From: Akkermansiaceae bacterium
GTDB lineage: Bacteria; Verrucomicrobiota; Verrucomicrobiia; Verrucomicrobiales; Akkermansiaceae
Direction of reading: 5' to 3'
DNA: 34,247 nucleotides
Assembly: GCA_903878115.1 (NCBI GenBank)
Contig: CAIRGO010000056.1
Coordinates: forward strand, 1 to 34,247
The notes under the pieces are model-generated. The model had not been told where the DNA came from. It saw nothing but the letters and a program-made list of their open reading frames with translations, and did not search any database. A program made the position numbers and the translations under genes. This document shows, piece after piece, positions 14,274 to 31,198 of the stretch (positions within the stretch are counted from its first letter, which is position 1; every line of letters begins with the position of its first letter).

Positions 14274-14321
14274 ATGAAAGGCTCCAGTTCTGAAAGATCA
14301 TGCCCTCTACTGCTCACATAA
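14274..14321 (+). CDS. possible 15-residue leader peptide overlapping the cytochrome gene start
   Basis: ATG 14274 has the best ribosome binding site in this part of the window (GGAGGT, five bases away). It opens a 15-codon frame ending in TAA at 14319-14321. That frame overlaps, out of phase, the first codons of the large cytochrome gene, whose own ATG at 14300 has only a weak GAAAG upstream. It could be a coupling leader. Alternatively, the true start of the large protein could involve a frameshift here. Low certainty. Confidence 0.25.
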   Translation: MKGSSSERSCPLLLT

Positions 14322-17300
14322 CATTTCTCAACCGCCTTCCGATCAAAAGCAATTTCTTAGCTGCGTTCACTCTTACAGCAATGATCTCGGCATCTAAAGC
14401 AATCGCTGCCGAACCCGCAAAATTCCAAGTTGATCCCGTCGCAGGGCAAATCCTAGAACAATATTGCATCGATTGCCATGAAGACGGCACGGAAAAGGGC
14501 GATGTGCGACTGGATAATCTCGCTGAATTAACGTTGGACGCTCGACTGGATATGATGAATCGAATGCACGAAAAAGTTCATTTCGAAGAGATGCCTCCCA
14601 AGAAGAAAAAAGATCAACCCACTGAGCAGGAACGCAAACAGTTAGAGAATTGGCTGGCGGAGATCCTTCACGCCAACAACGCATCCAAGCTCGAGGACAA
14701 ACTGCGCATGCCGAATTATGGTAACAAGGTGGATCACGACAAATTGTTTTCCGGAAAATACAAGGATCTGCCCGGCTACACACCCGACCGCCGCTGGTTG
14801 ATCAGCGAATTCATTTTCGATGCGAAGATGAATTCGCTGTTGGAATATACTGGCCAGCGCGACATTGACGGCAAGCGTTACAAGGTCATCGGCGACAACG
14901 GCCGGAACGGGGTGAAGGTGAATCTTACCAATCCTTTTCTTTTGCCCACGCAAAGCGGTGTCCGCTACTACGACACCACGACGCTCGATGGCGGGCATTT
15001 GCTCACGATGCTGACGAATGCGAAAGAGTTGTCGGCGTTCATGATCTCGCGGGCGAAAAACAAGACCTACCTTCCCGCGATCTATTCGATCATGGGCGCG
15101 GAATGGGAGCAGGATAAAATTCTCGCGGATCGCGCCACTTATCTCAATGCGAACATTGAACCGCTGTTAGTGGATCTTTTCAAGGACAAGCACGATTCGC
15201 TACTGCCGAAATTTGTTGCGACTAAGCCTGCGCCACCCGTGACGATCGGCCCCGATGGTAAGCCGCTGAACCTTCCAGGTTTCGACTATGCAGGGATGTC
15301 TGTCGAGGATCGGGATCAAATTTGGGCAGCCATTCGTCGGTATTCGCAGGACGGGAAAATGGACGAGTCAATGATCGTGAAATCCGAGAGGGATTGGTTC
15401 AATTTTGGGCTTAGTGAGAGAGAGCTCATCGTGCGCGTCAATTTCATGCGCATTTACATGGATGAATTTTTCAAGCGTATGCCCAAGCCGAACACGAATG
15501 TGCCCAAGCCACCCGCTGAAGCGGAGCTTGCCGTCATGCGTGCCGCCCTCCTGAAACACCGCAAGGCTGGGGATAATTACATCGCAGTCATTGCCAAATG
15601 CATGACCGAGTGGAGCGACGGATTCCGCAGCGAGCGTGAAAAGGCGAGCATCACCGAAGAGCAGATAAGCAAACTCGTAGATCAGCTTTTTACCAAGATC
15701 ATCGAGCGCGCGCCGACATCAGAGGAGCAGGCTGAATACGCGACGCTGACAAAGTCTTACTATCAGAAAATCGGCAGCGAAGAGACCATTCATAAGCTGA
15801 TTCAGACTATCATTCTCCGCACGGATTTCGTTTATCGCCAAGAGTTCGGCGAAGGCAATGCCGACGAAAACGGACGCAAGATGCTCTCCCCGCGCGATGC
15901 CAGTTATGCGCTGGCCTACGCGCTCACCGACAGCAGCCCTGACAAAGAACTCGCCGCGGCCGCGAGCAGCGGCAGGCTCAACACGCGGGAAGATTACGGC
16001 CGCGAGGTGCTGCGAATGCTCAAGAACCGGAGCCAGTATTACATTGTGGACGATGCGGTGGAAAGAATTGGCTCCGACAGCTTCACCAATATGCCGATCC
16101 GGAAGCTGCGCTTCTTCCGCGAGTTTTTTGGTTACCCCAGAGCGCTCCCCATCTTTAAGGATAACAAACGGTTCGGCGGTGACTACATTACGGTGTCTGG
16201 GCGTGCTGTTAGCGAGGCCGACATGCTGGTGGAACGTATCCTCGAACAAGATACGAACGTGATCGAAACGCTACTCGGCACCGAAGATTTTTACGTCTTC
16301 CACTCCGGCAATAACGAAGAAATGGCGAAGTCATCGGCTTACGTCCGCAAGATCTACGACTATTTCAAGGACAAGGACTGGAGGAATTTTGACGGATTGA
16401 AATTGAAGGAACATCTGGCCTTTTTGAAGGAAAACGAGGTTAGAGGGGTGAATCCCGACGTTGTTGCGAAGAGCACCGGTGGCAAAGAGGCACTAGGGGG
16501 CTTTATATCCACGATGAGCAGTTATGAAGATCTTCTGGGTAAGGGGCAGGCCAACGCCGTTCCATTCTCGTCCACACCAGGCCACGGAAAAACCGAAGGT
16601 CAAACGCGGACGGGAACACAATTGCGCGGGCCGGAAATCGCCAAGTGCTTCAATATTGATTTAAAAAACTGGAACTATCCCACCACTCAGCCCACCAAAA
16701 TGGAGCACCGCAAAGGCATCCTTACCCACCCCGCGTGGCTGATCGCCTTCGCCGCCAACACCGAGACCGACCCAGTCCGGCGCGGCAAATGGGTGCGGGA
16801 AAAACTGTTAGCTGGATCGATCCCCGACGTGCCGGTTACCGTCGATGCCGTCATTCCCGAGGATCATCACAACACTATGCGCACCCGCCTCGATAAAAAA
16901 ACCAAAGAAGAATATTGCTGGGGTTGCCATGAGAGGATGAACCCCTTGGGGCTAAGCTTTGAAATGTATGACGATTTTGGACGGTATCGGACCGAAGAAT
17001 TTCTGGAGCATCCCGACAATCTCATCAAGAAAATGCCGGACAAAGGCCCACCACAGGACGACTTGCGGGATATTTACAAGACCCTGCCGGTCGATGCGAA
17101 AGGTCAACTCGTCGGGACGGGCGATCCGAATCTGGACGGGGATATCAAAGATGCCATCGATCTAACAGGCCGCCTAGCGAAGTCTACTAGAGTGCGCCAG
17201 TCAATCATTCGCTATGCCTTCCGTTATTTCATGGGACGCAATGAAACGCTCTCCGACTCCAAAACACTGATCGATGCGGATCTTGCCTACGTCCGGAATG

Positions 17301-17377
17301 GCGGCAGCTTTGATGCGGTCATCTATTCGCTACTGACCTCCGATTCATTCATCTACCGCAAACCAATCACCAATTAA
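14300..17377 (+). CDS. long DUF1592/DUF1588/DUF1585 exported c-type cytochrome protein
   Basis: A 1025-residue exported protein with an N-terminal signal peptide ending near SKAIAA. A haem-c motif C56-I-D-C-H60 (PSCyt1-like) follows. After a long middle region come a DUF1592-like helical part (about 500-680), a DUF1588-like part with RRGKWVREKLLAG and a second haem-type motif C873-W-G-C-H877 followed by ERMNPLG, and a C-terminal DUF1585-like part (about 930-1020). These proteins are abundant in Planctomycetes and Verrucomicrobia, are thought to be periplasmic, and have no proven reaction. The DUF1587 signature is not obvious and the protein is longer than the homologue at 25334-27190. The DUF1552 gene starts 4 bp after its stop, so they are co-translated. 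Confidence 0.85.
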   Translation: MPSTAHITFLNRLPIKSNFLAAFTLTAMISASKAIAAEPAKFQVDPVAGQILEQYCIDCHEDGTEKGDVRLDNLAELTLDARLDMMNRMHEKVHFEEMPPKKKKDQPTEQERKQLENWLAEILHANNASKLEDKLRMPNYGNKVDHDKLFSGKYKDLPGYTPDRRWLISEFIFDAKMNSLLEYTGQRDIDGKRYKVIGDNGRNGVKVNLTNPFLLPTQSGVRYYDTTTLDGGHLLTMLTNAKELSAFMISRAKNKTYLPAIYSIMGAEWEQDKILADRATYLNANIEPLLVDLFKDKHDSLLPKFVATKPAPPVTIGPDGKPLNLPGFDYAGMSVEDRDQIWAAIRRYSQDGKMDESMIVKSERDWFNFGLSERELIVRVNFMRIYMDEFFKRMPKPNTNVPKPPAEAELAVMRAALLKHRKAGDNYIAVIAKCMTEWSDGFRSEREKASITEEQISKLVDQLFTKIIERAPTSEEQAEYATLTKSYYQKIGSEETIHKLIQTIILRTDFVYRQEFGEGNADENGRKMLSPRDASYALAYALTDSSPDKELAAAASSGRLNTREDYGREVLRMLKNRSQYYIVDDAVERIGSDSFTNMPIRKLRFFREFFGYPRALPIFKDNKRFGGDYITVSGRAVSEADMLVERILEQDTNVIETLLGTEDFYVFHSGNNEEMAKSSAYVRKIYDYFKDKDWRNFDGLKLKEHLAFLKENEVRGVNPDVVAKSTGGKEALGGFISTMSSYEDLLGKGQANAVPFSSTPGHGKTEGQTRTGTQLRGPEIAKCFNIDLKNWNYPTTQPTKMEHRKGILTHPAWLIAFAANTETDPVRRGKWVREKLLAGSIPDVPVTVDAVIPEDHHNTMRTRLDKKTKEEYCWGCHERMNPLGLSFEMYDDFGRYRTEEFLEHPDNLIKKMPDKGPPQDDLRDIYKTLPVDAKGQLVGTGDPNLDGDIKDAIDLTGRLAKSTRVRQSIIRYAFRYFMGRNETLSDSKTLIDADLAYVRNGGSFDAVIYSLLTSDSFIYRKPITN

Positions 17378-17381
17378 GAAC

Positions 17382-18776
17382 ATGAAAACCAGAAGAGACT
17401 TTTTGAAATCAACCGCTCTGGGTGCAGGTGCCCTGTCGCTCACACCCTACCTCAGCGCATTTGGTGCAACGGCCCCGGCCAATGGCTTTCCCAAGCGCTT
17501 TGTGTTCATCCGCAAATCAAACGGGGAAATCCCGAGTGATCTGGCGCTGCCCACTTTTTCAGCGGCTGACAAGGCACTGGATGATAAAAAGCAGGCCTTG
17601 GAGGTGGACTTGGACAAACATGAACTACCCGCTTGGTTGCAGTCGTTGGAAAAGCACAAGGCAAACCTTTGCATCCTTCAAGGCCTTTCTTCTAGGATGA
17701 GTGAGAACGGGCATTTTTCCTATTCTTCGGTGATGGGGGCCTACAAATCGAATGCGAATTCCCTCAGCGGCATCAAACGGGCGACCATCGATTTTGAATT
17801 AGCGAAACTATTTCCCTCGCCATTCGGTCATGTCGAGTTGTCGCTATTAGGAGACTACACCAAATTCCGGACTGGGATCGTGTCAGGATATTCGGCATCC
17901 GGCCCTCATCAGCGAAATTATTGCTACGCAGATCCCCAGACGGCTTACAACGAGTTGTTTCGAGCCGTAACGAATCCTGATTCCGTGGATTCCGACAATG
18001 CCATGCTGACCTTTCTGGAAAACGACGAGTCCTTTAAAGAGAAAATCCTCCAAGGCTACGAAAAACTAAAGCTCAGCAACCACATCCACTCCATCGAATC
18101 CATCCAGGCGCGCAATAAAAAGTTGTCGCAGATGGCCGGCTCCATCGCGAAATACATTCCCAAGATCGGTAAAATCCACGCTGATGGAGGACTCACCGCC
18201 AGTTCACCAGAGAAGCAGGCAGCGATGACTGACATTCTCATCGCTGCGCTCGTTACCGGACTGACGAATGTGGTGACCTACACGATTGACGAGCTTTCCA
18301 CACCGATCAGGGGCTTGCCCGGCAACGAAGCCGACCGCATCTCTATCCACTCCATCGGCCACAACGGAAGCTACAGCGGTGTCTCTGCCAACAAGATTCG
18401 CGACAATATCCGAACCGGCCACATCCGCGAAGTGGCACGCATCGTCGAGGGTCTCAAGGCCGTGCCTGAGGGCAAGGGCACCATGTTCGACAACACCATG
18501 ATCATGTATTTCCCCGAAGGCGGTGAAGGCCACCACGGTCTTGGCATCGAGGCTCCCTTTGTGATTTTGGCAGGCAATAACTGCAAACTCGACATGACAG
18601 GTCGCTACATTCGCTTGCCTTTCCATGCGACCGAAGGGCACAAGACCATCGGCAACTGGTACACTACCCTGCTCAATGCCCATGGAAATCCAATCAAGCA
18701 CTACGGCGACCTCGATCTCGATATGTCTCGATTGAAACTCGATCAAATGGGAGCCATTTCTCGATTTACCGCATGA
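17382..18776 (+). CDS. Tat-exported DUF1552 protein, partner of the cytochrome gene
   Basis: A 464-residue protein with a twin-arginine signal (MKTRRDFLKSTALGAGALS). The rest matches DUF1552: an early PKRFVFIRKSNGEIP segment, a GLSSRMSENGHFSYSSVMGAY block and a C-terminal NTMIMYFPEGGEGHHGLG segment. The fold is probably related to alkaline phosphatase / DUF1501 proteins, but no substrate is known. Tat export suggests a folded, possibly metal-bearing periplasmic protein. It begins 4 bp after the cytochrome gene, and the same pairing recurs at 23850-27190, so the two products very likely work together. Confidence 0.88.
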   Translation: MKTRRDFLKSTALGAGALSLTPYLSAFGATAPANGFPKRFVFIRKSNGEIPSDLALPTFSAADKALDDKKQALEVDLDKHELPAWLQSLEKHKANLCILQGLSSRMSENGHFSYSSVMGAYKSNANSLSGIKRATIDFELAKLFPSPFGHVELSLLGDYTKFRTGIVSGYSASGPHQRNYCYADPQTAYNELFRAVTNPDSVDSDNAMLTFLENDESFKEKILQGYEKLKLSNHIHSIESIQARNKKLSQMAGSIAKYIPKIGKIHADGGLTASSPEKQAAMTDILIAALVTGLTNVVTYTIDELSTPIRGLPGNEADRISIHSIGHNGSYSGVSANKIRDNIRTGHIREVARIVEGLKAVPEGKGTMFDNTMIMYFPEGGEGHHGLGIEAPFVILAGNNCKLDMTGRYIRLPFHATEGHKTIGNWYTTLLNAHGNPIKHYGDLDLDMSRLKLDQMGAISRFTA

Positions 18777-23002: not shown

Positions 23003-23334
23003 GATAAAAAAAGTATAAAAGTGTTAGGCCTATTCGAGGATCGTTATTTTACAAATTAATTGTTAAAAAAATATGTAGTGGCTTGGAAAGAGTCTTACGA
23101 TTAGGGGTGAATCAAACGCTTTGGTAGGCATTCATGGTGACAATCCCGTCATGCAAGACCTTAGCCCTAGAAAATTGATTTTTTGATTCTGTTAGATTAA
23201 AAATCTGTTAGAATATTCAAATAATCCCGCGCTTACGATGGGACAGTGTGATGCAATAGCCCCTGCGTGTGCGGCAGAATTTTTCTTTTGCTTGAGATTT
23301 CCCCTAGGATAGAAACGGGGATTCATAGTTCATT
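23003..23334. other. non-coding region upstream of the PEP-CTERM gene
   Basis: No gene was seen. The part next to 23002 is A/T-rich and probably holds the minus-strand promoter and leader of the PEP-CTERM gene. At 23188-23212 the 9-mer TCTGTTAGA occurs twice, 16 bp apart, and AGATT-AAA-AATCT (23194-23206) forms a short palindrome inside that pair. These may be regulator sites for the PEP-CTERM gene. The rest, to the start of the MBOAT fragment, has no recognised feature. Confidence 0.5.
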
Positions 23335-23758
23335 ACTGACACCACGCAAGACATCGAATACACCCAAACATCGCGCGATCACCTCTTGTTGAAAAGCGGG
23401 TGGAAAAAACAGAGCTAGAGGCAAAACTACGATAATCAAAGTAGGAATTTTTCCTAAGAGACTCCGCCATTTTTTCCCACTATCGTGAGAATTCCATGCA
23501 ATAGAAAATAGAGAGTAGGCAAGCCAAAGCCCGAGCGAACAGGAAGTGTGATGCCCAACTCATGCAGCAATCCAGACGCCAAAAAAATCGCCATCACGCC
23601 TGCATTTGATCCAGCGATTGCTTCGACAGGTCGGCCCACGAGACGCTGCATCATTTGTGAATAGCCCACATTCCACCTCCGGCTCCAGAAGTCACCGACG
23701 CCAGTTGTCTCCAGCACATTGGGAAACAGTGTCCGCACAGGAAAAGCCTGCCATGCGC
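23335..23758 (-). pseudogene. broken duplicate of the MBOAT gene 3' part
   Basis: This segment aligns along its length with 27475-27898, the 3' part of the intact MBOAT gene, at roughly 90% identity by eye, in the same orientation. It keeps DFWSRRWN and GLLHEL. It has one extra base near 23745, in a run of A, which breaks the frame at the 5' edge. It has one base fewer in a T run near 23471-23476, which gives a premature end at 23454. Homology stops abruptly near 23758, and the sequence beyond is unrelated. It has no start and no complete domain, so it is a non-functional direct repeat of the MBOAT gene. Confidence 0.9.
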
Positions 23759-23849
23759 TAAAAGCCCAAAGCGGTGGCGGGAGCAAGCAGGAAGGCATTG
23801 TATTTCAAAAGGCCTAGGATCTGATATTCGCACTATGAAATGACCCAAT

Positions 23850-25256
23850 TTATGAGATGCCGCGGAGACCGTCGGTGGCGTCGCCAAAGTTGCTGGCTTT
23901 GCCGCCGGCGGTCTCAAGCATGCTAATCCACAAGCTGCAGAGCGGGGTGCCGGGTTCGTAGACGATGTGTTTGCCGGTCTTGAGACCGGCTTTGCCGCCG
24001 CCGGCGACTACGATCGGAACGTTCTTCGGGTCGTGCGAGTTGCCGTCGCGGATCGGTGAGCCGAAGGCTACCATCGAGTTGTCGAGGAGGTTGCCCTCGC
24101 CTTCCTTGATGCCCTTCATCCGGTCGAGCATGTAGGCATACTGTTCGACGTGCCAGCGGTTGATTTTTTCGTATTGGTCGAGCTTTGATCCGTTGTTGCT
24201 GTGGTGGGATAGGTCGTGGTGCCCGCCGTTGACACCTTCGAGGAAGGAAAAGTTCCGGCCAGTGACGTCGTTGCCGAACATGAACGAGGAGACGCGGGTG
24301 GAGTCCGACCAGAAGGCGAGGACCATCAGGTCCATCATGATCCGGCAATGCTCGCCGTGGTCGAAGCGGGGCATCGAGTTGAGTTCTTCTTCGCGACTAG
24401 CCTTACCCATCGCCTTGGAGATACGCTTGTCGAGAGCGTCCATCTGTTTGAGGATTTCAGGAGGGAGGTTCTCGCCGGCGCCGAGCAGGTTGGCTTCGGC
24501 TTCGATACGTCGTTCGACTTCGCGGACGGATTCGAGGTATTGCTCGAGCTTGTTCTTATCGGCGTCGCCAAGCTTCGACTGGAGCCGCTTGGTGTCGACG
24601 AGGATCAGGTCGAGCACCGATTTGTCATCGGTGGCCTGCTTTTCGCCGCCCTTGGAGCGGGTGCGGAAGAGGCGGTCGAAGGCGACGCGTGGGTTGATCT
24701 CGCAGGGCAGCGGGACGGTGGAGGTTTTCCAGGAAATGTGCGACGCGTAGAGGCGGGTGTAGTTGACGTTGGTGTCGATGCCAGTGGCGACCGCTTCGGT
24801 GCCGAGCTCGAGTGAGGGCAGCTTGGTCCGTTGACCGATTTGCTGGGCGGCGAGTTGGTCCATGGAAACGCCGCCAGCGGCGATGTCGGAGCCAGTGGTC
24901 TTGGTGATGGTGGTGCCGGTCAACCATCCACCAGTTTTCACGTAATGACCGTCACCGGAAAAGGAGGCCTTATTCTGGAGCCCAGTCAGTATGAGCAGGT
25001 CCTGCCGGTGTTTTTCAAGAGGCGAAAGGATGGGCGAGAGTTTGAAGCCCGAGCCGTCGCCTGCAGGAGTCCAGCGATCCTGGCGTACACCGTTGGGCAT
25101 GTAGAGCAGCGCCAGCCGGACTGGAAGCGAACTGGAAGTGCTGGCGGCCATAAGCGGGCGCATCGCGTCGAGAAAGGGTAACGCAAGGGTGGCACCGGCA
25201 CCGCGGAGGAAGCTGCGGCGCGGCAGGAGCCAGTTTTGAGTTTGGATGTTGGCCAT
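23850..25256 (-). CDS. Tat-exported DUF1552 protein (second pair)
   Basis: A 468-residue protein with a twin-arginine-like signal (LPRRSFLRGAGATLALPFLD) and typical DUF1552 sequence. It has VRLALLYMPNGVRQDRW, a LTGLQNKASFSGDGHYVKTG region, a long charged helix (about 215-285) and MLDRMKGIKEGEGNLLDNSMVAFGS near the C terminus. It is the second DUF1552 gene here. It differs clearly from the one at 17382 and resembles the commoner Planctomycetes form. It lies 77 bp downstream of its cytochrome partner on the minus strand. GC is high (about 65% on a hand-counted line at 24001-24060) compared with the MBOAT operon next door. Function unknown. Confidence 0.92.
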   Translation of the reverse strand: MANIQTQNWLLPRRSFLRGAGATLALPFLDAMRPLMAASTSSSLPVRLALLYMPNGVRQDRWTPAGDGSGFKLSPILSPLEKHRQDLLILTGLQNKASFSGDGHYVKTGGWLTGTTITKTTGSDIAAGGVSMDQLAAQQIGQRTKLPSLELGTEAVATGIDTNVNYTRLYASHISWKTSTVPLPCEINPRVAFDRLFRTRSKGGEKQATDDKSVLDLILVDTKRLQSKLGDADKNKLEQYLESVREVERRIEAEANLLGAGENLPPEILKQMDALDKRISKAMGKASREEELNSMPRFDHGEHCRIMMDLMVLAFWSDSTRVSSFMFGNDVTGRNFSFLEGVNGGHHDLSHHSNNGSKLDQYEKINRWHVEQYAYMLDRMKGIKEGEGNLLDNSMVAFGSPIRDGNSHDPKNVPIVVAGGGKAGLKTGKHIVYEPGTPLCSLWISMLETAGGKASNFGDATDGLRGIS

Positions 25257-25333
25257 GGGATGAGGTGTTGGATTGGAGATTTTAGATTGGAGATAATGGA
25301 TGGAAAAGCAAGTGGATTCCCCATCCAGCGGCT

Positions 25334-27190
25334 TTATCTCTTTGCGCTGCGGTTCTGGAAGGGTGGAGATTCGATGATTGATAGAATAAGGGTCTGCATC
25401 TTTAGGTTGTCCTTGCGGAGCTTGGCGACGAGGTCGGTGACGACCGGTTCATCGTAGTATTCTAAAGGCCGCCCGAGGGCATAGGCTAGCATTTTACGGG
25501 CGAGGTTGCGCATGAAAAGTTCGTCGGAGGAGAGGAGTAAGTCCTTAAGTTCCTTGGGGGACGAAAAGGTGATGTCACCGGGCAGGGTGGCGAGGGAATC
25601 GACGGGTTTGCCATTGGCGTCTTTCGTCCTCCAGCGGCCGATGGCGTCGAAGTTTTCCAGTCCGAAGCCGAGCGGATCGATCTTCTCGTGACAGCCGGCG
25701 CATGAGGCCTTGGTGCGGTGGACTTCCAGCGTTTCGCGGAACGACAGGCCTGCGGTCGATTTGTCATCGCCGGGTAGCACGCCGGCATCGGGCGGCGGGG
25801 GTGGCGGAGGGGTGCCGAGGAGGGTGTCTAGAATCCACTTGCCGCGTTTCACTGGGCTCGTGCGCAGAGGCATGGAGGTGGCGGTTAGGATGGCTGCTTG
25901 GCCGATGACGCCGCCGCGGTTAGCGTCAGCAAGAGCAATGCGTTGGAGCTGGGTGCCTTCGACGCCTGCGATGCCATAGTGCTGGGCGAGTTCGGCATTG
26001 ACGAAGGTGTAGTCAGACTGGATCAGTTCGCGGGCGGGGCGGTTGGCGCGAACGAGGTAGTTGAAGAATTCCACCGATTCGCGGTACATCGAGACGCGCA
26101 AACTCTGGGTGAATGTAGGGAAACGCTTGGCGTCTGGCTGGGCAATGTCACGCACGTCCTCGAAGCCCAACCATTGGCCGGCGAAGTGGCGGGAGAGAGT
26201 TTCGGAGCGAGGGTCGTTGATCATCCGCAGGGCCTCGGTGCGGAGGGTGGCGGGGGCGGACAGCTTGCCTTCGTCGGCTAGCTTTAGCAGGCGTCGGTCG
26301 GGCATCGAGGCCCAGAGGAAGTAGGAGAGCCGGGTCGCAAGTTCGAAGTCATCGACTTTCCATTCCGACCTGCCGGGCTGGTCGGCCTCGATCCGAAAGA
26401 GGAAGGAGGGATGCAGGAGCAGCGACTGGAGTGAAGGGCGTAGGGCTTCCTCGTAGGAGGCTCCGGCGGCGAGTTTCTTGCCAAAAAGGGCGAGTAGCGG
26501 CGCGAGATCCTCATCGGTAACACGGCGGCGGAAAGCGAGAGAAGCGTGGGTGAGCAGGACGGTTCGCGCGGCCTTGTCAGGTGGCATTTTTTCGTTGGGC
26601 TTGGCGAAGATCACGCTGGCGAGGCGCTGGGGGTCATCGTAGATCGATCCGATGATCTTTTTCGAGGCGGCGAGGTATTTCTCTGTGAGCGATGGCTGGA
26701 CGAAGAGAGCGTCGCCTACATTATCGAAGCCTTCGCCGCCGGCGCCATCGGATGGAAAATCGCGGCCAGGGAGGAAGTCGACGCCGAAGAGGTCGCGGAC
26801 AGTGTTATTGTATTCGTTTCGGTTGAGGCGGCGGACGGTTGCGCGACCAGGATTCCGCGGAAAGTCGCCGGTTTCGAGCTTTTTGAGGGTGGACTTGATC
26901 TCGTCTGCCAATAATTTGCGCTCGGCATCGGTGGGAAGCAGATCCTCGTCATCAGGCGGCATGTCGCCGGACTCGACCTGTTTCGCGATATTTTCCAAGA
27001 AACGGTGGTGGCGAAGGGCTGCGTCGGCCGAGTTGAGCTGATGAACTTCGACCCCCCCCTTCTGGGTCTTCTCGCCGTGGCACTCGCAGCAGTATTTCGA
27101 AAGCAAGGGCGTCGCCTTATTCGCGAAGTCATCGGACCAGCCAACGAGGGGCAGCGCGAATAATGCGACGAATATTACAAATTGTTTCAT
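25334..27190 (-). CDS. DUF1587/1595/1592/1588/1585 exported c-type cytochrome protein
   Basis: A 618-residue exported protein with the full planctomycetal set in order. After the signal peptide comes haem motif C34-C-E-C-H38. A DUF1587 block (RRLNRNEYNNTVRDLFGVDF) follows, then DUF1595 (FRRRVTDEDLAPLLALFGK), DUF1592 (LATRLSYFLWASMPD through YTFVNAELAQHYGI) and DUF1588 with KRGKWILDTLLGTPPPPPPP and second motif C497-A-G-C-H501 before EKIDPLGFGLENFDAIGRWR. A DUF1585 tail with YALGRPLEYYD ends the protein. It is shorter than many family members but all parts are present. It is probably periplasmic and works with the DUF1552 product of the next gene. High GC, as for its partner. Confidence 0.93.
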   Translation of the reverse strand: MKQFVIFVALFALPLVGWSDDFANKATPLLSKYCCECHGEKTQKGGVEVHQLNSADAALRHHRFLENIAKQVESGDMPPDDEDLLPTDAERKLLADEIKSTLKKLETGDFPRNPGRATVRRLNRNEYNNTVRDLFGVDFLPGRDFPSDGAGGEGFDNVGDALFVQPSLTEKYLAASKKIIGSIYDDPQRLASVIFAKPNEKMPPDKAARTVLLTHASLAFRRRVTDEDLAPLLALFGKKLAAGASYEEALRPSLQSLLLHPSFLFRIEADQPGRSEWKVDDFELATRLSYFLWASMPDRRLLKLADEGKLSAPATLRTEALRMINDPRSETLSRHFAGQWLGFEDVRDIAQPDAKRFPTFTQSLRVSMYRESVEFFNYLVRANRPARELIQSDYTFVNAELAQHYGIAGVEGTQLQRIALADANRGGVIGQAAILTATSMPLRTSPVKRGKWILDTLLGTPPPPPPPDAGVLPGDDKSTAGLSFRETLEVHRTKASCAGCHEKIDPLGFGLENFDAIGRWRTKDANGKPVDSLATLPGDITFSSPKELKDLLLSSDELFMRNLARKMLAYALGRPLEYYDEPVVTDLVAKLRKDNLKMQTLILSIIESPPFQNRSAKR

Positions 27191-27461: not shown

Positions 27462-28382
27462 TTAAGGTGCAGCAATCACACCACTCAAGACATCGAACAC
27501 ACCCAAACACCGCGTGATCACCTCTTGTTGAAAAGCGGGTGGGAAAAGCAGACCTAGAGGCAAAACGACGATGATCAAAGTCGGAATTTTTCCTAAAGGA
27601 CTCCTCCATTTTTTTTCCAGTATCGTGAGAATCCCATGCAACAGAAAATATAAAGTCGGCAAGCCAAAGCCCGAGCGAACGGGAAGTGTGATAGCCAACT
27701 CATGCAGCAATCCCGACGCCAAGAAAATCGCCATAACGCCTGCATTTGATCCAGCGATTGCTTCGACAGGTCGTCCCACGAGGCGCTGCATCATTTGTGA
27801 ATAGCCCACATTCCACCTCCGACTCCAGAAGTCACCGATGCCAGTTGTCTCCAGCACATTGGGAAACAGTGTCCGCACGGGAAAGCCTGCCATACGCATG
27901 CATCCTTTTAGCACACGCAGTGCACCGAAATGAAAACCCAAACTCATCGGCAGAAACATTACGAAAATTTGACGCCATTCCATAAACCATACTAACCATG
28001 AGCCAAGAACCCCAGCCAGCATCAACATCAATCCTACTTTCACATCGACTTTCCAACTCAAGCCATCGCGTCTGTTTCTAAAACTTGCAGGATCCATCCC
28101 GAACCAAAAAAGAGAAAATATCCCATATCGAACGATCGTAAGACGCTGTTCTCCAGCCCATTCGGCGTAAACAAGTCCTTTCAGTCCTCCCAAAAGCACG
28201 GAGCAAATTCCCACCATTCGCAAAATCGCATCCGCATCTGTTAGAGCAAGATGAGCACCCGTCACAACGGCCACAAGAACCAGCCAACCGAGAAATCGCC
28301 TGAGCTTCAGATTTCTCACATTGGCCAAAAGCGGACCTGTCGTGATTCCTGCCATCACCAAAATGGGAATAATCCAGATCAT
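27462..28382 (-). CDS. MBOAT / wax-synthase-like membrane O-acyltransferase
   Basis: A 306-residue membrane protein with about eight hydrophobic segments. The DFWSRRWN motif (residues 184-191) and the later ASGLLHEL motif (His227) are the pair seen in wax-synthase-like MBOAT_2 acyltransferases, where the His is catalytic. The likely reaction is transfer of an acyl group from CoA or a carrier to a hydroxyl in the membrane. The acceptor is unknown. ATG 28382 is chosen over upstream codons because it overlaps the previous stop as ATGA and has AAAGGGGA just upstream. Last gene of a four-gene operon. A damaged copy of its 3' half lies at 23335-23758. Low GC (about 42% at 28081-28140). Confidence 0.85.
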   Translation of the reverse strand: MIWIIPILVMAGITTGPLLANVRNLKLRRFLGWLVLVAVVTGAHLALTDADAILRMVGICSVLLGGLKGLVYAEWAGEQRLTIVRYGIFSLFWFGMDPASFRNRRDGLSWKVDVKVGLMLMLAGVLGSWLVWFMEWRQIFVMFLPMSLGFHFGALRVLKGCMRMAGFPVRTLFPNVLETTGIGDFWSRRWNVGYSQMMQRLVGRPVEAIAGSNAGVMAIFLASGLLHELAITLPVRSGFGLPTLYFLLHGILTILEKKWRSPLGKIPTLIIVVLPLGLLFPPAFQQEVITRCLGVFDVLSGVIAAP

Positions 28383-28822
28383 GGCAAAAATCCCCTTTCT
28401 AACCATCCGGCGTTCCAACACAAGAGACTTGCATAGAGCACAACCAAGCCCATGAAGAGCAGAGTCAGCAATTGCTTCGCAATCCGATTGTGCAGAGTCC
28501 CCTCAACCTCTCTCAAATCGAACCCGAAAAACTGCAACCATAAGCGCACCGCCCACCATAACAACATAAAGGAACACATTGCCATCGCCGAACCGCTACC
28601 TCCCATGAGCCAGTCGCGAAAGCTCAGCGCCAGCACCGCGAAGAACGCATGACTAATCCAGACGTAGATCGAATACGTCCACCACAGTTCGCGCATCAAT
28701 GGAGTCAATCCCGCCAATTTTTCCCGCCAACACAGCACTTTAGGAATCCAAAAGCTGGCGATGCACAGCGCCACCAGCGACCACCCACCGATCATCAGGC
28801 CGATTTGTAATAGCTCCTTCAT
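28379..28822 (-). CDS. small four-helix membrane protein, paralogue of its neighbour
   Basis: A 147-residue protein with about four membrane segments. ATG 28822 overlaps the preceding stop as ATGA; an upstream extension would run inside the previous gene. A REKLAGLTPLMREL loop after the first helix and a WAVRLWLQFFGFDLRE segment align with RYAENLAGSEVMVRQ and WASRVVVQLTYYDKE in the adjacent 134-residue protein. The two therefore look like diverged tandem duplicates. No known family was recognised. It is sandwiched between its paralogue and the MBOAT gene with 4-bp overlaps on both sides, so it is likely a stoichiometric partner of the acyltransferase. Confidence 0.82.
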   Translation of the reverse strand: MKELLQIGLMIGGWSLVALCIASFWIPKVLCWREKLAGLTPLMRELWWTYSIYVWISHAFFAVLALSFRDWLMGGSGSAMAMCSFMLLWWAVRLWLQFFGFDLREVEGTLHNRIAKQLLTLLFMGLVVLYASLLCWNAGWLERGFLP

Positions 28823-29223
28823 TGGTAAATCGTAGCTAAGGTAAATACTGCGCAGAGAACGACAAAAACTAACAAAAAGAAAACATCCCATCCTCTCTCA
28901 CGGCGGCGGAGTTCCTTATCGTAATAGGTCAACTGCACCACTACTCTACTAGCCCAAAAGAGCCCGAAAAATCCGCTGAGCACCTGGCCCATACCGCCCT
29001 CTAACAACAACTGCGGCCAACCCAAACACAATAGAGCCAAGCCCGAGATGATCGATATGATGTAAGCGCAATGGACATAAAAAATCTGCCTCACCATCAC
29101 CTCTGATCCCGCCAGATTTTCGGCATATCGCAAACGCTTCGCAGCAACAAAATTCGCCAACACTAAACCTAACAAAATCACCCCTGTCCCGCGCAATCCC
29201 ATTTCCAAATATAACGTGTTCAT
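28819..29223 (-). CDS. small four-helix membrane protein of unknown family
   Basis: A 134-residue protein with four hydrophobic segments (about 7-25, 44-66, 76-96, 110-130). Its first loop carries RYAENLAGSEVMVRQ and its third loop WASRVVVQLTYYDKELRRRERG, both related to the next gene's product. It lies 21 bp after the DCC gene stop and ends in an ATGA overlap with the following gene. No enzymatic residues stand out. It may form a heteromeric membrane unit with its paralogue. Confidence 0.82.
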   Translation of the reverse strand: MNTLYLEMGLRGTGVILLGLVLANFVAAKRLRYAENLAGSEVMVRQIFYVHCAYIISIISGLALLCLGWPQLLLEGGMGQVLSGFFGLFWASRVVVQLTYYDKELRRRERGWDVFFLLVFVVLCAVFTLATIYQ

Positions 29224-29244
29224 TTTTTTATTCCTCCCAAATTA

Positions 29245-29700
29245 TCATTTCGTCACACAAAATCCACCATCACACTCGGCCTGTTCCATGTGATGCAATT
29301 CTTCCCTTACCTTCTTGTCTTTGCTCCGAAAAAAGACCTTGCTCAGCGCATGGCGATTCGCCGCCAGCACACGACATGCTTGCACCGCGACGGGAAGCAA
29401 ACCAGGCCCACCCAGCCTACGCGCCGCTGTCTGGTAATTCGCACAGCTATAAAGGCACCACACCCATGCTTCCGCGCCTCGATAAACTTCATTCTCACTG
29501 GTTCTCACCACCATCTCCCGAGCGGGATCTAGCGTGCCCAAGCCAGGGAAAATCCGTTCCGCATGCGCCGCTTGATAGGGAATGAATTGAATCCTGAATG
29601 CCCGAGTTTGGCGATTGATCCATTCATGAAAGCTGCAGCACATCCCACAGCGACCGTCGTAAAACACTTCAATTCCTTTGATTTCTTTTGGTAATTTCAT
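29245..29700 (-). CDS. DCC-family (DUF393) thiol-disulfide oxidoreductase-like protein
   Basis: A 151-residue protein with the DCC signature YDGRCGMCCSF: Asp15, then Cys18-G-M-Cys21 as the thioredoxin-like CxxC, plus an extra Cys22. There is no signal peptide, so it is probably cytoplasmic or peripheral. Further cysteine pairs (WCLYSCAN, and ECDGGFC near the C terminus) are unusually many for the family and suggest metal or redox chemistry. ATG 29700 is preferred because AAAGGAAA lies just upstream and the longer in-frame start gives a non-family tail. First gene of the operon with the two membrane proteins and the MBOAT. Confidence 0.85.
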   Translation of the reverse strand: MKLPKEIKGIEVFYDGRCGMCCSFHEWINRQTRAFRIQFIPYQAAHAERIFPGLGTLDPAREMVVRTSENEVYRGAEAWVWCLYSCANYQTAARRLGGPGLLPVAVQACRVLAANRHALSKVFFRSKDKKVREELHHMEQAECDGGFCVTK

Positions 29701-29806: not shown

Positions 29807-31198
29807 TTAAGACTTATCAAAATAGCGAACGAGTCCGTAGGCGCGCTCGTTGATTCGTTTCATCGATTCAAGCAATGGTGTGTAGGGTTCGTAGCGATTG
29901 CCAAGGATACCTTTGTTGGCATCCTGATTGGAGGGATCAGAACGGGTGTCGGCCGGGTCATTATCGATATACTTGAACCAGTGCCAACCGACACAGCTTT
30001 TGGATTGAAGCAGTCCAAGAGTGAAATTTTCGTAAAATAAGCCGCGGTCGCGCTGTGTCTTGACAAGCCAACCTGCGCCACTGGTGTTTGCGAGACCAGA
30101 ATCTGCGCCCTTGGCATACCACTCGGTGATGATCACTGGTTTTCCTGCTTCGCGCGTCCACATCGCCAATCGCTCAGGATCTGGAGTCCACGCGTGATAA
30201 TAATTCACGGAAACCACGTCCACATGCGGACCAGCGGCGCGAAAAACTTCAGGAAAACGCAAGACACTGCCATGAAATCGCGCTCCGAGGTAAAGATGGT
30301 TCGGATCGTTGCGTTTGATGGCACGGGACACGATACGAAAATATCGCTCGACCATGAATTCCAGAAAAAGCGGCAGATCCGCCGACTTGATGTCGCGCGC
30401 GGTGGCTTTCTCACCATGCCGAGCGCGCAACCACGTCAACGCAGCTTGATGTCCCGGATCGCTGTCTGGCAGAGAGAGGTAGTTTTTCAGAGCATCCGCA
30501 CGAAACGGCAATTCATTGTCTGAAAAATGTCCGAGCAAGTATGGATCACTTTTTCCTGCAGCCAACTGGCGCGCGAAGTCCTCACAGAATGTCTCGAATT
30601 CTGGGTCGAACACGAAAATGCAGTCGCTAGGATAACCGGTGTGCCCAGGTTTTTGATAGGTTCCGCCGCGCTTCTTGCCATAGCTCGACATGAAGTTCCA
30701 AATGCGTGTGTAGGTGAGTGGTGTTTGCACCGCCCGCAAACGTTCCGTATCAGTCCATGCGCCGAGACCGTTGAAACCATAGGAACGCAACATCGCAGTC
30801 GTTTGTTCGGCCCAGTTTTTTTCATCGGTGAACTTCTGCTGCCACGCTGTTTTGGCTCCAGACGTGCTAAGCATGCTGACGGACGACATACCGCGCTGGA
30901 GAAATAAGCACCCTTCTGGATCCACTAACCACCATCGCCCGTCAACTTTCGCCGTATGAAAGAAGCCCGTGGTCTTTTCTTTGCGCGATGCGATTCCACC
31001 AAAGCGACTTAGGTCGCTATCGCTTTTTAGCGAGCTTGCACCAGGCACGTCTGCCAAGGTTAGGGTGGGACGAGCCACCCATTTGTCTCCTGGTTTATTG
31101 GCGACATCGACAGTCAGCGGCGAGCTTTGTGCGAATGATAGCGGCAAAAGCAGATGATAAAAAACTACGAGTGCGACTTTGATATTTAGCGTTTTCAT
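29807..31198 (-). CDS. secreted clan GH-A glycoside hydrolase, agarase-like
   Basis: A 463-residue exported enzyme with a signal peptide ending near SFAQS. The sequence fits a TIM-barrel of clan GH-A, with an acid/base Asn228-Glu229 in HFSDNELPF and a nucleophile Glu359 in VIITEWYAKG. WWLVDPEGCLFLQRGMSS near the N terminus and CVGWHWFKYIDNDP near the C terminus recall GH50/GH86 beta-agarases and their relatives. The substrate is probably a marine or plant galactan-type polysaccharide, but the family was not confirmed. It sits between the MBOAT operon and the beta-helix region on the same strand. Confidence 0.82.
   Translation of the reverse strand: MKTLNIKVALVVFYHLLLPLSFAQSSPLTVDVANKPGDKWVARPTLTLADVPGASSLKSDSDLSRFGGIASRKEKTTGFFHTAKVDGRWWLVDPEGCLFLQRGMSSVSMLSTSGAKTAWQQKFTDEKNWAEQTTAMLRSYGFNGLGAWTDTERLRAVQTPLTYTRIWNFMSSYGKKRGGTYQKPGHTGYPSDCIFVFDPEFETFCEDFARQLAAGKSDPYLLGHFSDNELPFRADALKNYLSLPDSDPGHQAALTWLRARHGEKATARDIKSADLPLFLEFMVERYFRIVSRAIKRNDPNHLYLGARFHGSVLRFPEVFRAAGPHVDVVSVNYYHAWTPDPERLAMWTREAGKPVIITEWYAKGADSGLANTSGAGWLVKTQRDRGLFYENFTLGLLQSKSCVGWHWFKYIDNDPADTRSDPSNQDANKGILGNRYEPYTPLLESMKRINERAYGLVRYFDKS

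Follow-up and report, generated by a model that had tools for sequence, protein, structure and literature searches.

A Conserved Verrucomicrobiota Operon of a DCC Protein, Twin Four-Helix Membrane Proteins and a Short MBOAT as a Candidate Membrane Acylation System

Results

Four Tightly Packed Genes under Purifying Selection

The window analysed here, by which we mean the whole stretch of 34,247 nucleotides of contig CAIRGO010000056.1 from an Akkermansiaceae bacterium, carries in the region 27462–29700 exactly four genes, encoding a DCC thiol-disulfide oxidoreductase-like protein, two small membrane proteins (TM1 and TM2) and a short O-acyltransferase of the MBOAT type (Table 1). A preceding inspection of the letters without database searches (the sequence-only reading) had described four tightly packed minus-strand genes with two ATGA overlaps, and the arrangement is indeed found as such: the 4-nt ATGA overlap occurs at both the TM1/TM2 and the TM2/MBOAT junctions, and DCC and TM1 are spaced by 21 nt. 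As the same −4 junctions recur in all the relatives measured (11 out of 11 for TM1/TM2 and 13 out of 13 for TM2/MBOAT), the overlaps are not due to chance. Moreover, against the relatives all four genes gave dN values of 0.09–0.28 with dS above 2 or saturated; therefore, DCC, TM1, TM2 and MBOAT are all under purifying selection. The flanking genes (29807–31198 and 25334–27190) are not represented in the conserved cluster. A search for RNA families gave none, and no promoter or terminator signal was above chance.

Table 1. Features of the operon and of the related decayed gene in the window (positions refer to the whole stretch).
Feature	Position	Strand	Description	Evidence
DCC thiol-disulfide oxidoreductase-like protein	29245–29700	−	151 aa, start ATG 29700	PF04134
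TM1 four-helix membrane protein	28819–29223	−	134 aa	AlphaFold2 model, no Pfam family
TM2, TM1 paralogue	28379–28822	−	147 aa	BLASTP to TM1, alignments, overlap
Short MBOAT_2 O-acyltransferase	27462–28382	−	306 aa	PF13813, invariant residues, DGAT1 profile/fold matches
Decayed partial second MBOAT copy	23326–23798	−	C-terminal half, frameshifted	92% DNA identity to the intact gene

A decayed second copy of the MBOAT is also present in the window, and a DUF1552/DUF1592 gene pair stands between it and the intact operon, a layout which suggests a recent tandem duplication or rearrangement. Planctomycete-type cytochrome (DUF1592-like) genes are paired with DUF1552-like genes twice in the window, the two pairs being divergent: at 14300–18776 on the plus strand and at 23850–27190 on the minus strand.

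The DCC Protein

The first product of the operon matched PF04134 (DCC1-like) with E 9e-14 (53.1 bits against a cut-off of 27.8) and shows the motif DGRCGMC, of the DxxCxxC type, so that by domain and motif match it is predicted to be thiol-disulfide oxidoreductase-like. In an alignment of 21 DCC proteins D15, C18 and C21 of the motif are invariant, and so is C148: of the 8 cysteines that had made the protein appear Cys-rich, three are thus invariant. Domain match and D-x-x-C-x-x-C motif are common to the ordinary, YuxK-like DCC proteins, from which the window protein, a long form, differs in being linked, and in places fused, to an acyltransferase, and in its C-terminal Cys tail; the tail is absent from the ordinary third DCC protein of the same genome. 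The PDB sequence search with the DCC protein returned no relative.

A Four-Helix Family with No Credible Match in the Databases Searched

TM1 and TM2 share 30% identity over 105 aa (BLASTP, E 5e-10), which agrees with the earlier view of the two as paralogues. The AlphaFold2 model of TM1 (pLDDT 89) consists of four long helices, and C52 and C66, both in helix 2, are invariant in 14/14 TM1 orthologues, whereas TM2 has no conserved cysteine. Membership of a well-characterised unrelated family, which would have spoken against an undescribed system, was not observed: neither protein matched a Pfam family, the search of NCBIfam with TM1 gave just a 12-bit match against a cut-off of 100, and across 43 members of the TM family the family searches produced stray single matches only. 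Likewise, nothing credible was obtained in the PDB by sequence profile and, by Foldseek, the TM1 model had no PDB counterpart, no match falling below E 2.9. The sigma-2 receptor and the voltage sensor were considered as relatives and rejected, since their matches were not significant.

A Predicted DGAT1-Type Acyltransferase

The wax-synthase-like acyltransferase noticed from the sequence was confirmed by a match to PF13813 (MBOAT_2) with E 6.5e-9, 36.4 bits against a cut-off of 25, and by the retention of the catalytic residues: H227, the catalytic histidine, N191, W186, W190 and E228 do not vary in either the close (20 sequences) or the broad (25 sequences) alignment, W190-N191 being the WN motif. 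C60, by contrast, is invariant in the close group only and varies in the broad set. The large list of MBOAT_2 matches, in which long AlgI/DltB-type MBOATs of about 500 aa predominate, was left out of the comparison. When the MBOAT profile was compared to the PDB, plant DGAT1 was matched with E 3.6e-9, with the HE and W-N motifs aligned and H227 facing the histidine of the plant HEL motif; the entry of the DGAT1 H447A mutant, in which this histidine is alanine, gave a weaker match. The AlphaFold2 model of the MBOAT (pLDDT 85) retrieved by Foldseek DGAT1 in first place (E 1.7e-4, probability 1.00), followed by ACAT and HHAT. Acyl-CoA is the donor for the known MBOATs with the exception of DltB (PMC10213974). 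Because of the matches to DGAT1, ACAT and HHAT together with this acyl-CoA use, the best reading of sequence and model, by family knowledge, is that the MBOAT would be an acyl-CoA-dependent lipid O-acyltransferase, and the DGAT1/wax-synthase type of enzyme favours a lipid acceptor over a glycan one.

Conservation and Gene Fusions

A scan for the MBOAT, with one genome per species, identified 19 loci, some of them cut by contig ends; all come from records that bear the name Verrucomicrobiales, Akkermansiaceae or a similar one. The order DCC-TM1-TM2-MBOAT is the same in most of the 19 loci, in line with the proposal that the four genes belong together, and TM1 is missing at two loci (L009 and L010). 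The operon is carried by three records titled Akkermansia muciniphila (L007, L008 and L010), titles which may be wrong, and the sampled genomes of a small-genome group of the same family (g2) are without this MBOAT.

In a sample of 338 Verrucomicrobiota genomes the MBOAT was found in 14 and the TM family in 24; the TM family is present in 14/14 of the MBOAT genomes, a co-occurrence not to be read as a probability statement because the genomes are related. By coordinates, the MBOAT and the TM gene are adjacent or fused in 12 of these genomes, one gene apart in another and about 8.5 kb apart in the last (G124). Several distant loci (L067–L072 and L124–L127) have no DCC gene next to the MBOAT; therefore, the locus does not strictly require one.

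The gene fusions occur in distant relatives. At five loci (L081, L082, L084, L086 and L087) DCC and MBOAT are joined in one open frame, and both Pfam domains were recognised by hmmscan in the protein of L086, while at L122 the MBOAT and a TM protein form a single ORF of 459 aa. No plasmid-borne relatives of the DCC-MBOAT fusion were found. That two different partners are fused to the same MBOAT is the strongest evidence for a physical complex of the operon products, which, on the basis of the sequences, we consider likely.

A Larger Module, Apparently Split between Two Contigs

Further genes accompany the operon in the close loci: a GbsR-like regulator lies upstream in 7 of 19, a small membrane protein, here sTM3, lies between DCC and TM1 in 4, and a TIGR01777 reductase follows the MBOAT in 6. 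More distant Verrucomicrobiales have the same set reordered, for instance as regulator–DCC-MBOAT–TM–TIGR01777–TM, and more distant families of the phylum show the order regulator–MBOAT–TM–TIGR01777. In the genome of the window, a second contig (C60, 5444–7734) carries a GbsR-like regulator, sTM3, a second DCC protein, 30% identical to the one in the window, and a TIGR01777 reductase that runs into the contig end; the reductase may continue in a C-terminal TIGR01777 fragment found at the beginning of contig C326. Other genomes have the same block of HTH, sTM3, DCC and reductase genes (L165, L169 and L171). Thus, the operon in the window appears to be half of a module that is undivided in other species.

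sTM3 (4762–5127 of L014, and its relatives) has many invariant residues, is usually found near DCC or the regulator, and was present in 17/289 sampled Verrucomicrobiota genomes; it had no credible match in Pfam or NCBIfam, and profile comparison revealed no relationship to the TM family. At L078 a fatty acid desaturase gene (PF00487; 8626–9627, minus strand) lies between the MBOAT and the regulator.

Discussion

The system is real, conserved and, within the reach of our searches, undescribed, although its parts are of known kinds; in the open-licence papers searched, no description of the four-gene set was found. Among the explanations advanced by the sequence-only reading, acylation of a membrane lipid, or acyl transfer under redox control, is the best class. 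In favour of that reading, the gene order is conserved, the paralogues belong to a family undescribed in Pfam and NCBIfam, the catalytic residues of the MBOAT are retained and the fusions speak for a likely complex; of the two outcomes that would have refuted it, neither was observed. The larger module and the DGAT1-type, lipid-alcohol character of the enzyme had been missed.

We propose that the operon encodes a redox-linked acyl-CoA:alcohol O-acyltransferase complex whose product would be a neutral or isoprenoid-type lipid ester, and we give this explanation as a whole a probability of about one half. With acyl-CoA as donor, the MBOAT, of the DGAT1/wax-synthase type, would place a fatty acyl group on the hydroxyl of a hydrophobic molecule; this acceptor is probably a lipid alcohol of neutral or isoprenoid type. 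TM1 and TM2 would be dedicated four-helix partner subunits on the flanks of the short MBOAT core, and the predicted cytosolic DCC protein would act as thiol-disulfide partner, controlling or maintaining the redox state of the complex. Candidate targets of the latter are C52/C66 of TM1 and C60 of the MBOAT, as judged by Cys conservation within the close clade only. The operon would then be the acylation half of a larger pathway, the other half being that on contig C60 with its GbsR/MarR-like regulator, in which the TIGR01777 reductase may make, supply or trim the alcohol acceptor. It is a more tentative suggestion, and a rather doubtful one in its full extent, that in a multi-subunit acyltransferase the thioredoxin-like DCC protein directly regulates, or relays thiol chemistry to, the DGAT1-type MBOAT via the four-helix pair, within a regulated lipid-ester pathway spanning the Verrucomicrobiota and comprising regulator, DCC, sTM3, TIGR01777 reductase, MBOAT and TM proteins. 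A loose parallel could be drawn with the plastoglobules, the lipid droplets of plants, since a review lists among plastoglobule proteins both the DCC protein AT1G52590 and the phytyl ester synthases (PMC12587418).

If the proposal is true, the operon would provide a DGAT1-like enzyme of bacterial origin to which partner subunits are dedicated and a redox partner is built in, and we found no description of such a combination; it would give a function to TM1/TM2 and sTM3, and to DCC and TIGR01777 proteins in such a setting, and would point to a specific lipid ester produced under regulation by Verrucomicrobiota.

Besides the ordinary DCC proteins, three known systems come closest. The window MBOAT shares the catalytic histidine, the W-N motif and the MBOAT fold with DGAT1 and ACAT, the acyl-CoA lipid-alcohol acyltransferases of the MBOAT superfamily, but it is bacterial, is much shorter (306 aa, compared with 528 in the plant DGAT1 chain), and is encoded with, and sometimes fused to, partners of the four-helix and DCC types. 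With the MBOAT_2/wax synthase family (PF13813) it has in common the FW..RWN and HE motifs, while it belongs to a distinct group of Verrucomicrobiota proteins associated with TM and DCC partners. Finally, the Dlt D-alanylation system provides the example of a bacterial MBOAT, DltB, which works with dedicated partners from one operon; however, homologues of DltA, DltC and DltD are absent from every cluster examined and the window MBOAT is nearer to DGAT1 in both sequence and fold.

This last comparison bears on a different explanation, namely that the MBOAT complex acylates an extracytoplasmic glycan or cell-wall polymer, as DltB, AlgI or WssI do, helped by TM1/TM2 and DCC in an accessory or folding role. 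Besides the presence of the MBOAT domain, it is in keeping with the fact that glycans and teichoic acids are frequent substrates of bacterial MBOATs of known function, such as DltB (PMC10213974) and WssI. Nevertheless, the best sequence and fold matches are to DGAT1, then to ACAT and HHAT, and not to DltB, the family matched is MBOAT_2 rather than the long MBOAT family, and the conserved cluster contains no glycan polymerase, DltD-like or AlgJ-like gene; we thus regard acylation of a glycan as unlikely.

To a similar degree improbable, in our opinion, is that the real core consists of DCC and the TIGR01777 reductase, with a redox- or quinone-related membrane function, the MBOAT being an optional tailoring enzyme and the TM proteins general partners. 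HTH-sTM3-DCC-SDR genes do occur at loci without a nearby MBOAT, several clusters include DoxX_3 genes, and members of the TM family are found beside DUF2071 and methyltransferase-like genes, distant from any MBOAT, so that the TM family is wider than the window system. On the other hand, all MBOATs of this type from the phylum sample come with a TM partner, and fusions to the enzyme exist for DCC as well as for TM; owing to this constant partner and to the fusions, the acyltransferase, wherever it occurs, is more than a loosely attached extra. Finally, that four unrelated membrane and redox genes are co-transcribed by chance in one clade is very improbable: the order does vary among relatives, some of which lack DCC or TM1, but the overlaps are conserved, co-occurrence is complete in the sample, fusions exist and the same set recurs in rearranged order.

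The DUF2071 genes of some clusters also prompted us to consider a decarboxylase-reductase-ester pathway, given the weak acetoacetate-decarboxylase similarity of DUF2071. It was not adopted, as DUF2071 is absent from the window cluster; in addition, the region which we take to be that of the Schiff-base lysine reads PYR, which would count against a decarboxylase. DUF2071-like genes are part of a second recurrent cluster (L088, L089, L092, L098, L099 and L100), together with a methyltransferase-like gene, whose product has N-terminal hydrophobic helices, and a single TM-family gene, and this cluster is sometimes accompanied by a DoxX-like gene.
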